Shown piece after piece: positions 34,451-38,155 of a stretch of DNA of 47,236 nt; within the stretch, counting starts at the first letter, position 1, and the number at the start of each line of letters is the position of its first letter. The notes beneath the pieces were generated by a model. The model had not been told where the DNA came from and ran no database searches. It saw nothing but the letters and a program-made list of their open reading frames with translations. A program made the position numbers and the translations under genes. Source of the DNA: Synechococcus sp. CCY 9618 (GTDB taxonomy: Bacteria; Cyanobacteriota; Cyanobacteriia; PCC-6307; Cyanobiaceae); contig NZ_JAFKRG010000041.1 in assembly GCF_019038415.1 (NCBI RefSeq), positions 1 to 47,236 of the forward strand, written 5' to 3'.

Positions 34451-36181
34451 GTGCTGCGCCTCGAACGCATCGGCAAGATCTATCCCACCGGTGAGGTGCT
34501 GAAGGACGTCACCTGGGAGGTGAAGACCGGCGACCGCATCGGTCTGGTGGGGGTGAACGGGGCCGGCAAGTCGACCCAGATGCGGATCATCGCCGGCCTG
34601 GAGGAACCCACCAGCGGCCAGGTGGTGCGCCAGGGGGATCCACGCATCGCCTACCTGCAGCAGGAATTCGATGTGGATCCGGCGCGCAGCGTGCGCCAGG
34701 AACTCTTCCAGGCCTTCGGCGAGGCCGCCCAGGTGCTCAACCGCCAGCGCCAGGTGGAAGACGCCATGGCCACCGAGGAGGCCGCCGCCGATCCAGCCCT
34801 GCTGGACCGCCTGATCGACGAACTCGGCCAGCTGCAGAGCCGTTTCGAGTCGCTCCACGGCTACGAGCTCGATGCCCGCATCGACAAGCTGCTGCCCAGC
34901 ATCGGCTTCACCCCCGAGGCCGCCGAGAAGGCGGTGGGGGACTACTCCGGCGGCTGGCAGATGCGCATCGCCCTGGGCAAGATCCTGCTGCAGGAACCGG
35001 ATCTGCTGCTCCTCGACGAACCCACCAACCACCTGGACGTGGAGACGATCCAGTGGCTGGAGACCTACCTGGTGGACCAGACCGTCCCCCTGGTGGTGAT
35101 CAGCCACGACCGGGCCTTCCTGGACCGGGTCTGCAACCAGATCGTGGAGACCGAGCGGGGTGTGGCCCGCACCTATCTGGGCAACTACAGCCAGCATCTG
35201 GAGCAGAAGGCCCTGGAACGGGAAGCGGGCCAGGCCGCCTTCGAGCGCCAGCAGAAGGAACTGAGCAGCCAGCAGGCCTACATCGACCGCTTCCGGGCCA
35301 GCGCCACCCGCAGCACCCAGGCCAAGAGCCGCGAGAAGCTGCTGGACAAGGTGGAGCGGATCGAAGCGCCGCTGGAATCGCTGGGCGGACCGCGCTTCGC
35401 CTTCCCCCCCGCCCCCCGCTCGGGCCGGGTGGTGGCGTCGATTGAGAACCTCACCCACGGCTACGACGACCAGATCCTGTTTCTGGGGGCGAACCTGGAG
35501 GTGGAGCGGGGCGACCGCATCGCCTTCGTGGGCCCCAACGGAGCGGGCAAATCCACCCTGCTGCGGCTGGTGATGGGCTACGAGATCCCCCTCGAGGGTC
35601 AGGCCGGTCTGGGGGAGCACCATGTGGTGGCGGGGTATTTCGAACAGAACCAGGCCGAGGCCCTCGATCTGGCCAAGACCGTGATCGACACCCTGTTCGA
35701 GGCCGTGCCCGACTGGACCCAGACCCAGGTGCGCTCCCTGCTGGGCAGCTTCGGCTTCAGCAACGACACGGTGTTCAAGCCGGTGGCCAAACTCAGCGGC
35801 GGCGAGAAGGCCCGGCTGGCCCTGGCCCTGATGCTGCTCACGCCCTGCAACCTGCTGGTGCTGGACGAGCCCACCAACCACCTCGACATCCCCGCCAAGC
35901 AGATGCTCGAGGACGCCCTGATGGCCTACGAGGGGGCCGCCCTGCTGGTCTCCCACGACCGCTTCTTCATCGGCCGGGTGGCCAACCGGATCGTGGAGGT
36001 GCGCGACGGCGAACTGGTGCTCTATCGGGGTGACTACGCCTACTACCAGGAGAAAAAGAAGGAGGAGGCCGATGAGCAGGGCCGGATGAAACAGGAGCAG
36101 CAACAGGCCGCCAAACGGCAGGAGCAGCGCCGCAAGCAGCGCGCCAAGGCCGCACAGAAAGACGCGCGCAAAGGCGGCTGA
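34451..36181 (+). CDS. ABC-F family ATPase (Uup/EttA-like)
   Basis: 576 residues from GTG 34451 with two ABC nucleotide domains and no membrane segments. Domain 1: Walker A GVNGAGKST, signature YSGGWQMRIALGK, Walker B LLLLDEPTNHLD. Domain 2: Walker A GPNGAGKST, signature LSGGEKARLALALM, Walker B LLVLDEPTNHLD. The linker between them (about 235-320) contains AYIDRFRASATRSTQAKSR, the P-site tRNA interaction motif region of ABC-F proteins. The tail is highly charged (KKKEEADEQ..., about 530-576). ABC-F proteins act on the ribosome; the exact subfamily cannot be fixed here. Confidence 0.92.
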   Translation: MLRLERIGKIYPTGEVLKDVTWEVKTGDRIGLVGVNGAGKSTQMRIIAGLEEPTSGQVVRQGDPRIAYLQQEFDVDPARSVRQELFQAFGEAAQVLNRQRQVEDAMATEEAAADPALLDRLIDELGQLQSRFESLHGYELDARIDKLLPSIGFTPEAAEKAVGDYSGGWQMRIALGKILLQEPDLLLLDEPTNHLDVETIQWLETYLVDQTVPLVVISHDRAFLDRVCNQIVETERGVARTYLGNYSQHLEQKALEREAGQAAFERQQKELSSQQAYIDRFRASATRSTQAKSREKLLDKVERIEAPLESLGGPRFAFPPAPRSGRVVASIENLTHGYDDQILFLGANLEVERGDRIAFVGPNGAGKSTLLRLVMGYEIPLEGQAGLGEHHVVAGYFEQNQAEALDLAKTVIDTLFEAVPDWTQTQVRSLLGSFGFSNDTVFKPVAKLSGGEKARLALALMLLTPCNLLVLDEPTNHLDIPAKQMLEDALMAYEGAALLVSHDRFFIGRVANRIVEVRDGELVLYRGDYAYYQEKKKEEADEQGRMKQEQQQAAKRQEQRRKQRAKAAQKDARKGG

Positions 36182-36268: not shown

Positions 36269-36274
36269 GGAGGA
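36269..36274 (+). promoter_or_regulatory. Shine-Dalgarno site of the twin-CX3C miniprotein
   Basis: GGAGGA lies six bases upstream of ATG 36281. It is one of the best ribosome sites in the window and supports translation of the 54-residue frame that follows. Confidence 0.6.
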
Positions 36275-36280
36275 AAGTTG

Positions 36281-36445
36281 ATGACCACGCAGCCCCTCGT
36301 CCCGGACGGCTGGAGCGCGGAGCCCGCCGGCACGGCGGACACGATGGATGCGATGGAGGTGTACTTCGAATGCATCACCACCTGCTCCCTCGAGGACGGG
36401 GAGTGTGTCACCCGCTGCGTGGAAGAACTCAGGGAGCGCCACTGA
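36281..36445 (+). CDS. 54-residue protein with twin CX3C motif
   Basis: ATG 36281 to TGA 36443-36445. It has a strong GGAGGA site upstream. A Pro/Gly-rich, acidic N-terminus (1-25) is followed by a helical hairpin: VYFECITTCSLEDGECVTRC with C31xxxC35 and C42xxxC46, then VEELRERH. Two CX3C pairs separated by six residues would place the cysteines on facing helices, suited to two disulfides or a metal site. No signal peptide is visible, so it is likely cytosolic. I recall similar small proteins in marine picocyanobacteria but no assigned function. Confidence 0.7.
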   Translation: MTTQPLVPDGWSAEPAGTADTMDAMEVYFECITTCSLEDGECVTRCVEELRERH

Positions 36446-36617: not shown

Positions 36618-36887
36618 ATGTCCGAACCCCTCGCCCTCAGCCTCGGTCAGAAATTCGAGCTGGAGCGCATGACCCGGGCCATCGACGCCACGGGCGATCC
36701 CCAGGTCCTGCGGGGGCTGGCCAAGCAACTGCTGCAGGCCTGGCAAAGCCAGAAGGCGGCCACCCAGTGGGTGATGCGTCAGCAACTCGGGTCTCCGGCC
36801 CGCTTCGGCAGCGAACTGTCGCCGGATGCAGCCATGCTCGACTCCCTCCGACCGGAAGGGGGCAACGGCCCCGCTGACATCCTCTGA
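36618..36887 (+). CDS. Small conserved hypothetical protein
   Basis: 89 residues from ATG 36618. Helical: LSLGQKFELERMTRAIDATG, DPQVLRGLAKQLLQAWQSQ, KAATQWVMRQQLG, then a Gly/Asp-rich tail. This layout resembles small cyanobacterial proteins of unknown role conserved among Synechococcus. No membrane segment or motif. The preceding gap 36446-36617 contains a G/C-rich stretch and then an AT-richer segment (about 36555-36585) where its promoter may lie. Confidence 0.6.
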   Translation: MSEPLALSLGQKFELERMTRAIDATGDPQVLRGLAKQLLQAWQSQKAATQWVMRQQLGSPARFGSELSPDAAMLDSLRPEGGNGPADIL

Positions 36888-36920: not shown

Positions 36921-38048
36921 TCACCCCTGGCGCATCAGGGCCATGTCGCCGGGGGTGAGACGCAGGTTCACCACCGAACCTCGACGATTCACGGTCAGAT
37001 TCAGGATCCCCCCCACGCCGGCCCGTTCCACGGCGGTGATCACCTGGGAAGGATCCTGCACCGCCGCTCCTTCGGCGGCAACGATCACGTCACCGGCCAT
37101 GAGTCCTCCCCGGTCCGCCGGTCCACCCGGCTGCACGGACACCACGACCGCGCCGCGGCCTTCACCTCTGCCGTCGCCACTTCTGATCTCGTCCAGGCCG
37201 ACGCCGATCATCGGGTGTGTCGCCCGCCCGGTGGCCACCAGTTCCTTGACGATGGTGCGGGCCCGGTTGATCGGAATTGCAAATCCCAGACCAGCCCCCG
37301 GGCCCGAGCGGACCAGGGTGTTGATTCCCACAACCTCTCCATCGGCGTTGAGCAGCGGTCCGCCGGAATTTCCAGGATTGATGGCGGCGTCGGTCTGAAT
37401 CAGATCCAACCGCTTGTCGGTGATGCCGAGCTTGCTGGCGTTGCGGTTCAGGCTGCTGATGATCCCGAGGGTGACCGTGTTGTCGAGGCCGAAGGGATTG
37501 CCCACCGCGATCGCCCAGTCCCCCACCTGAAGGGCATCGGAATTGCCGAGGGGGGCCACCGGCCACGGGCCTGCCCCCACAAGCCGCACCACCGCCAGAT
37601 CGGTGAGCTTGTCGAGCCCCACCACCCGGCCCTCGTAGCGGCGGCCATTCTCAAGGCCCACCGTGACCCGGTCGATCTGATCCACCACGTGGGCGTTGGT
37701 GAGCACCAGCCCATCGGACTGCAGGATCACGCCACTCCCCTGACCCCGTTCGGTGCGACGGGATGGTGATCCCTGCTGGGGGATGCCGAAGAACTGCCGG
37801 AAGAGGGGATCGTTCAGCAGGCCCCTGGGCAGGCCTCCGGTGGCTGCCGACTGAACCGTGCGCTCGGTGTCGATGGTGACCACGGCCGGGCCCGCCCGGC
37901 GGATGGCGTCCGCGACGAAGGACTGGCGCCCGAGAGCGGAGGCCGCCGGCCGGGCAAGGCCTGGAGCGGTGAAGGCCGGCAGGGAGACGGCCACGGTCGC
38001 GGTGGCGAGCCCTGCCGCAGCCGCAGCAAGAACGCGGGAGGAAGGCAT
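36921..38048 (-). CDS. Deg/HtrA-family trypsin-like serine protease with one PDZ domain
   Basis: About 375 residues from ATG 38048. A signal peptide (residues about 1-30, rich in Ala/Val) points to the periplasm or lumen. The catalytic triad is visible: His in LTNAHVVDQ, Asp in [10 protein letters not shown], Ser in [15 protein letters not shown]. One C-terminal PDZ domain (about 280-365, MIGVGLDEI ... [15 protein letters not shown]) follows. Deg proteases degrade damaged proteins, including photosystem II subunits under high light. Cyanobacteria have HtrA, HhoA and HhoB; I cannot say which orthologue this is. Confidence 0.93.
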
Positions 38049-38155
38049 CGCGGGAAGGCACGGATAGACGAAAACCGTAGACAAGCCGCCGGTGGGAAGG
38101 AAGGGGAGGCAAACCGGCCTGATCCGCTATGATTTGTTAACTTTTCTATCGAGAC

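Follow-up and report, generated by a model that had tools for sequence, protein, structure and literature searches.

A conserved twin-CX3C small protein of picocyanobacteria and its probable relatives in T4-like cyanophages

The mitochondrial small Tim proteins carry twin CX3C motifs on a helical hairpin, a feature they have in common with the protein described here, for which they serve as an analog only. The latter is bacterial, lacks an import pathway, and belongs to a family in which the two CX3C units are separated by 6–10 residues, a loop shorter than that of the small Tim proteins. Sequence comparison gave no sign of kinship with these proteins: none of the 11 weak Pfam matches obtained from 53 family members (E ≤ 1) is a Tim model and no Tim chain was recovered from the PDB. 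A related arrangement, CX3C-Xn-CX3C on a helix-loop-helix with two disulfides, is described for the plant alpha-hairpinins, defence peptides that were selected for signal peptides in the cited study (PMC11591084). The protein described here, with its loop of six residues, matches the alpha-hairpinin motif CX3C-X4-20-CX3C, and we found no sequence relation between the two.

Among cyanobacterial proteins, CP12 is also small, contains cysteine pairs and is present in cyanophages (PMC3906501). Membership of the CP12 family was rejected: a genome-wide search with PF02672 (E ≤ 0.1) finds only a separate CP12 gene, and hhalign gives a probability of 0.8 and a score of 12.9, whereas the best of 100 shuffles scores 15.7. 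PSHCP is likewise a tiny, picocyanobacteria-specific protein without known function; it has 62 residues, is basic, lacks these cysteines and has other gene neighbors, and identity with it was rejected as well (PMC4215834). On the viral side, the family PHROG_665, or T4-GC 363, includes Syn9 gp134 and is catalogued without a function. The main text of PMC3037559 makes no mention of T4-GC 363, and within open-licence PMC no paper was recognised as dealing with the family described here.

The gene is located in a 47,236-nucleotide stretch of Synechococcus sp. CCY 9618, which was analysed as a whole and is referred to as the window. The open reading frame at 36281–36445 (+, stop included), supported by its translation, its homologs and selection, encodes a 54-residue protein, MTTQPLVPDGWSAEPAGTADTMDAMEVYFECITTCSLEDGECVTRCVEELRERH*, with many acidic residues and four cysteines arranged as C31/C35 and C42/C46; its C-terminal end reads DAMEVYFECITTCSLEDGECVTRCVEELRERH. 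A Shine-Dalgarno-like GGAGGA at 36269–36274 (+) lies 6 bases 5' of the ATG. The frame, this site and the cysteine positions agree with those given by the first-pass annotation. The N-terminal part, residues 1–22 (36281–36346, +), is variable by dN/dS and in the alignments and is mostly of low model confidence. Residues 23–54 (36347–36442, +) make up the conserved hairpin core, delimited by dN/dS, invariant columns and pLDDT. On the evidence of the translation, the structure model and the host loci, the first CX3C unit (C31–C35; 36371–36385, +) falls at the end of predicted helix 1 and the second (C42–C46; 36404–36418, +) at the start of predicted helix 2.

The gene is flanked by two conserved neighbors. 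Directly upstream lies an ABC-F gene (34451–36181, +; PF00005 in two stretches, PF12848), and a convergent gene for a Deg-type trypsin/PDZ protease follows downstream (36921–38084, −; PF13365, PF13180). Conservation was counted at 80 named loci, 77 of which have room upstream and 78 downstream. A same-strand ABC-F gene is found within 500 bp upstream at 74 of the 77 loci (the exceptions being L130, L137, and L139), and a Deg protease on the opposite strand downstream at 70 of the 78 (L114, L124, L130, L132, L133, L135, L137, and L139 lacking it). The conserved block comprises an 85-residue open reading frame, ABC-F, the twin-CX3C gene, Deg, DUF2973, a 128-residue open reading frame and HrpB. 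Because the whole block is conserved and paralogs occur elsewhere, the ABC-F/Deg neighborhood says little about function. In the surroundings of 16 paralogs, any one neighbor is common to at most two or three stretches, and the annotated host and phage neighborhoods pointed to no pathway. No promoter or terminator was found by consensus between the ABC-F and twin-CX3C genes. An Rfam scan of the window gave no match, so no riboswitch or structured leader was seen, and 53 further loci yielded just four tRNAs and one cobalamin riboswitch. The latter lies near a paralog (L159, 717–862, −) and is probably unrelated.

Cysteine spacing alone is weak evidence for a gene, as the bare four-cysteine codon pattern occurs twice in the window (0.13 expected), with one copy antisense within the ABC-F gene (36091–36138, −), which we judged to be chance. 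It is conservation, rather than spacing, that establishes the 54-codon frame as a gene. Across 13 orthologs, dN/dS, obtained as a simple Nei–Gojobori count pooled over pairs, is 0.045 for residues 23–54 and 0.43 for residues 1–22; when the window gene is compared with the remaining 12, they are 0.040 and 0.515, respectively. Purifying selection on the core is strong. None of the four cysteines is missing from any of the 104 host loci fetched, or from any of the 82 distinct places that they represent (22 were fetched twice); these loci were retrieved by protein or profile search rather than by pattern and are the better-scoring ones, with weaker paralogs partly read. Across 53 alignment rows, Y28 and F29 vary no more than the cysteines do, save for the L at F29 in one of the loop forms described below (form C). 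The first-pass annotation had proposed a small gene and named missing homologs, homologs without the cysteines, and a dN/dS near one as grounds for refuting it. None of the three applies in the hosts, where homologs, synteny, the retained cysteines and the low core dN/dS support the gene; one phage subgroup has lost the third cysteine. The paralogs and the cyanophage relatives described below were not part of that annotation.

The family is widespread within a narrow taxonomic range. With the single protein as query (E ≤ 0.1), 37 of 60 nearby genomes match, made up of 36 of the 37 from its own genus plus one outsider (E 0.048). A 14-row profile (E ≤ 0.001) identifies relatives in 379 of 400 genomes of its own family, including 249 of 251 near-complete ones, and in 55 of 59 genera. 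Of 290 genomes sampled across the class, 44 match at E ≤ 0.001, all from this family. A broader profile at E ≤ 0.01 matches 45, the sole outsider being an 18-residue match (E 0.009) that is no more than chance would give. A scan of named genomes, which used cysteine-bearing patterns and was therefore left out of the cysteine counts, returned 166 relatives, and the best 80 of these carry titles such as Cyanobium, Synechococcus, Prochlorococcus, Vulcanococcus and similar. Within the genomes searched, the family occurs solely in picocyanobacteria, a single GTDB family that includes Cyanobium, Synechococcus, and Prochlorococcus, and in their T4-like phages. The twin-CX3C protein is among the core proteins of these smallest oceanic and lake cyanobacteria. 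A tblastn search of plasmids with the window protein gave nothing at E ≤ 1. One locus, L139 (CALPNT020000096.1), comes from a record titled as a Bifidobacterium breve MAG. The occurrence of the cyanobacterial gene there suggests a bin that is contaminated or wrongly labelled.

The host family has no significant Pfam match among 53 relatives; the window protein, which was the one query compared with NCBIfam, matches neither database even at E ≤ 10. The best of the weak Pfam matches of the relatives has an E of 0.028. Phage_antitermQ, the most frequent of them (8 relatives, best E 0.087), was taken as chance.

AlphaFold2, supplied with the 53-row host alignment, predicts helices at residues 16–34 and 40–53 (mean pLDDT 73.3, pTM 0.48), with block-mean pLDDT values of 86–91 over residues 21–50 and of 47 and 51 for residues 1–20. 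A separate model from a 41-row viral alignment contains helices at residues 7–37 and 43–54 (mean pLDDT 78.5, pTM 0.52). The C-terminal 32 residues are predicted to form a short helical hairpin with the two CX3C pairs at its neck, and the cysteines fall on the predicted helices much as the first-pass annotation had envisaged for a twin-CX3C hairpin. Judging from position, C35 would lie opposite C42 and C31 opposite C46, symmetrically about the loop. Such a fold would give a cytosolic bacterial instance of the twin-CX3C hairpin. Searches of the models with Foldseek and VIA returned no significant structural match (best E 1.1–1.8; best Z 4.4). The weak top PDB match of the host model is acrorhagin I (E 1.5, Z 4.4), which we take to be a small disulfide-bonded peptide. 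By sequence, the window protein gave two PDB matches (E 1.4–1.5) and the phage profile six (E 0.27–4.8, one of them Cox6b), none significant, and the host profile gave no chain at E ≤ 10.

A second family copy is present on another contig of the same genome, and matching host genomes contain one to five copies. Both CX3C units are fixed in the hosts, and the loop between them ranges from 6 to 10 residues. For clarity, we refer to three forms: form A has a loop of 6 and a mostly ELRE-like end; form B a loop mostly of 8, once of 9, and a VEVHLK-like end; and form C a loop of 10 and an ICMERHLK end. Intermediates occur, such as a B-like end with a loop of 6. A loop that varies in length between fixed CX3C units fits a hairpin stapled at the neck, whether through two disulfides or through a single metal ion. 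A WDAVE(E) string in L107, L191, and other marine type-A proteins resembles the AWD_VEE of CP12, probably by coincidence. In two host genomes of one genus, g79 (L300 and L301), we observed a divergent version, MKTAQDRYFECLEVC...CRQVC, which seems nearer the phage type and is detected by PHROG_665 and not by the host profile.

Profile comparisons lend good support to homology between the host family and PHROG_665/T4-GC 363, the small-protein family of T4-like cyanophages introduced above, and on sequence grounds the host proteins are a sister branch rather than members of the phage subfamily. The two branches have in common the hairpin core and the spacing of the CX3C pairs after [DE]Y[FY], and their profiles match both ways. 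They differ in that the phage proteins have a conserved MHN-xxSxNxL N-terminus, present in the viral alignment and in none of the 80 host proteins read, a second helix that is mostly KR-rich, and one subgroup without the third cysteine (C3). The PHROG_665 model, which was built by others, matches the window protein at an E of 0.036 only and four host paralogs at 1.2e-4 to 4.5e-3. At E ≤ 0.1, it identifies 33 places in 14 of 16 host genomes and none in 14 control genomes; 27 of these places are known family loci, five are further twin-CX3C proteins, and one contains two stops. At E ≤ 1, it finds exactly the two family loci in the genome of the window, and 2 of the 14 controls match too.

Comparison of host with viral profiles by hhalign gave probabilities of 97.1, 98.0, and 96.9. 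Since the viral loci had partly been found by host patterns, we repeated the comparison with six named phages only and obtained a probability of 93.1 and a score of 36.0. Scores from 200 column shuffles did not exceed 17.3, and those from 200 shuffles with the cysteine columns fixed did not exceed 23.4 (best probability 45). All 41 proteins of the viral alignment match PHROG_665, and two phage records name the gene T4-GC 363. In tblastn searches of phage records (E ≤ 1), neither the window protein nor one type-B host protein gives a match, so it is profiles and intermediate sequences that carry the phage link. The phage half of the family was already catalogued without a function, and the host half is without a significant Pfam or NCBIfam match.

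The viral branch is common among cyanophages. When viral contigs were scanned with the paralog alignment, nine loci emerged, several of them plainly T4-like. At E ≤ 1, tblastn recovered 341 phage records with one viral protein, 107 with a second, and 2 with the host-like protein of viral locus L191. Syn9 gp134 (E ≤ 0.1) recovered 361 records, all titled Synechococcus, Cyanophage, Prochlorococcus or Marine virus, and no match with another first word occurs in either the 341- or the 361-record search. Syn9 gp23 (E ≤ 1e-100) recovered 514 records, of which 470 begin with Synechococcus, Cyanophage, Prochlorococcus or Marine and 44 with other words, including Stenotrophomonas, Sinorhizobium, and Pelagibacter. 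Records with the small gene therefore number roughly three quarters of those with cyanophage gp23; GenBank/RefSeq duplicates are included, and totals rather than individual records were compared. In the 60 phage rows listed, 17 have no feature under the match, 4 are unannotated records, and 39 carry an uninformative name; the first-pass view that the protein is too small for routine gene calling holds in part, for these phage relatives.

The position of the gene varies between phages. In Syn9, it is situated between gp23 and the small open reading frames preceding gp3, and in P-SSM7 immediately 5' of gp3; P-TIM68, S-SRM01, P-SSM2, and P-SSM4 carry it at other positions, and at viral locus L187 it lies upstream of an HSP20 gene. 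In L191 (1088–1162), a host-like copy (WDAVEEYFEC) directly follows gp23, a slot also used by Syn9, and is possibly a recent capture. A weak tree (32 columns, 89 rows), used solely to place two viral sequences, puts L191 and L185 on the host side, which suggests more than one capture. In P-TIM68 and P-SSM2, a gene named ferredoxin or ferredoxin oxidoreductase follows the small gene at a distance of about 2.4–2.5 kb downstream (L196, 6513–7238; L199, 6628–7329); no such gene was seen in the remaining four phages.

Among the best 80 viral loci, there are 58 distinct proteins, of which 51 keep the twin CX3C and seven lack C3; C1 is fixed by the search pattern in this set. Named phages that keep all four cysteines have loops of 6, 7 or 9 residues. 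The phages without C3 (L238, L240, L247, L257, L267, L275, and L277, and also L196, which is P-TIM68) mostly share an FCRHIL ending. A replacement ligand or a relaxed role is possible in this subgroup.

Given these features, we tentatively favor a cytosolic, thiol-switched helical-hairpin adaptor that is also carried by cyanophages. The disulfides, the switching, the adaptor role, and the use that phages make of the protein are what we infer. In the oxidised state, reached in the dark, under stress or during infection, two disulfides would staple the hairpin and enable it to bind a partner. Thioredoxin would reduce these disulfides and loosen the hairpin, as in CP12, although the sequences are unrelated. 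The variable N-terminus may tune each paralog, and the phages, with their own MHN-xxSxNxL version, could act on the same host system. Prediction of the hairpin separately from the host and viral alignments counts for such a switch. Against it stand the cytosol, which is normally reducing, and the C3-less phage subgroup, which keeps C2 and would leave it partnerless. A reducing cytosol and the presence of four cysteines at every distinct host place would instead suit a hairpin that holds one zinc, copper or iron ion at its neck and acts as a carrier, a buffer or a metal-stabilised adaptor. Reduced small Tim proteins bind one zinc through the four cysteines of their twin CX3C (PMC3759932). We nevertheless favor the redox-conditional adaptor over a zinc hairpin, the chief alternative, which we regard as possible but rather doubtful. 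The C3-less subgroup (7 of 58 viral proteins, and the isolate P-TIM68) could still form a C1–C4 disulfide, whereas it is one cysteine short of a four-cysteine metal site and so speaks against an obligatory site of this kind, and the annotated neighborhoods name no metal transporter or regulator.

A hairpin that does not switch, in which the cysteines serve packing or covalent trapping within a complex subunit or a proteolysis adaptor, would account for the invariance of Y28 and F29, the freedom of the N-terminus to vary, and the several copies found in some genomes; we consider it unlikely, as the four cysteines persist while the loop changes length, which points to paired cysteines. The position directly 3' of the ABC-F gene could indicate a partner of that translation factor acting on ribosomes. 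This is improbable, as adjacency is unspecific in a block conserved as a whole, the matched ends are 115–471 bp apart, and none of the six annotated phage copies has a neighbor named as ABC-F; moreover, the ABC-F protein finds a single match across the 16 paralog stretches, an ABC-type ATPase (25–27%) 1.5 kb away. RiPP precursors have a conserved N-terminus and a variable core, the reverse of what is observed here. By eye there is also no hydrophobic N-terminal signal segment, and no significant Pfam or NCBIfam family was found. A secreted or modified peptide, either a RiPP or an alpha-hairpinin-like antimicrobial, is accordingly very improbable, even though the spacing suits the plant motif (PMC11591084). 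The occurrence of the cysteine pattern antisense to the ABC-F gene would fit a frame that is open by chance and not a gene, a reading that the core dN/dS, family-wide conservation and synteny refute and that we give practically no weight.

In oceanic photosynthesis and its turnover by viruses, picocyanobacteria and their T4-like phages have a major part. A host family that is nearly universal and often present in several copies, paired with a widespread cyanomyovirus family, points to a shared host process. Should the redox-conditional adaptor be correct, most T4-like cyanophages might carry a copy of it and take over host light/dark thiol signalling during infection, an extension that we hold to be doubtful. 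The phage copy would then be a CP12-like viral host-control protein of different sequence and fold, overlooked at about 55 residues.

Downstream of the twin-CX3C gene, the window contains an 89-residue open reading frame (36618–36887, +) without a Pfam match, which by eye resembles NblA-like small proteins. It has three further matches in its own genome (E 2e-20, 1e-5, and 0.03), and in two genomes of a single genus (L288 and L296) its relatives are located 1.5–1.9 kb from paralogs of the hairpin gene.
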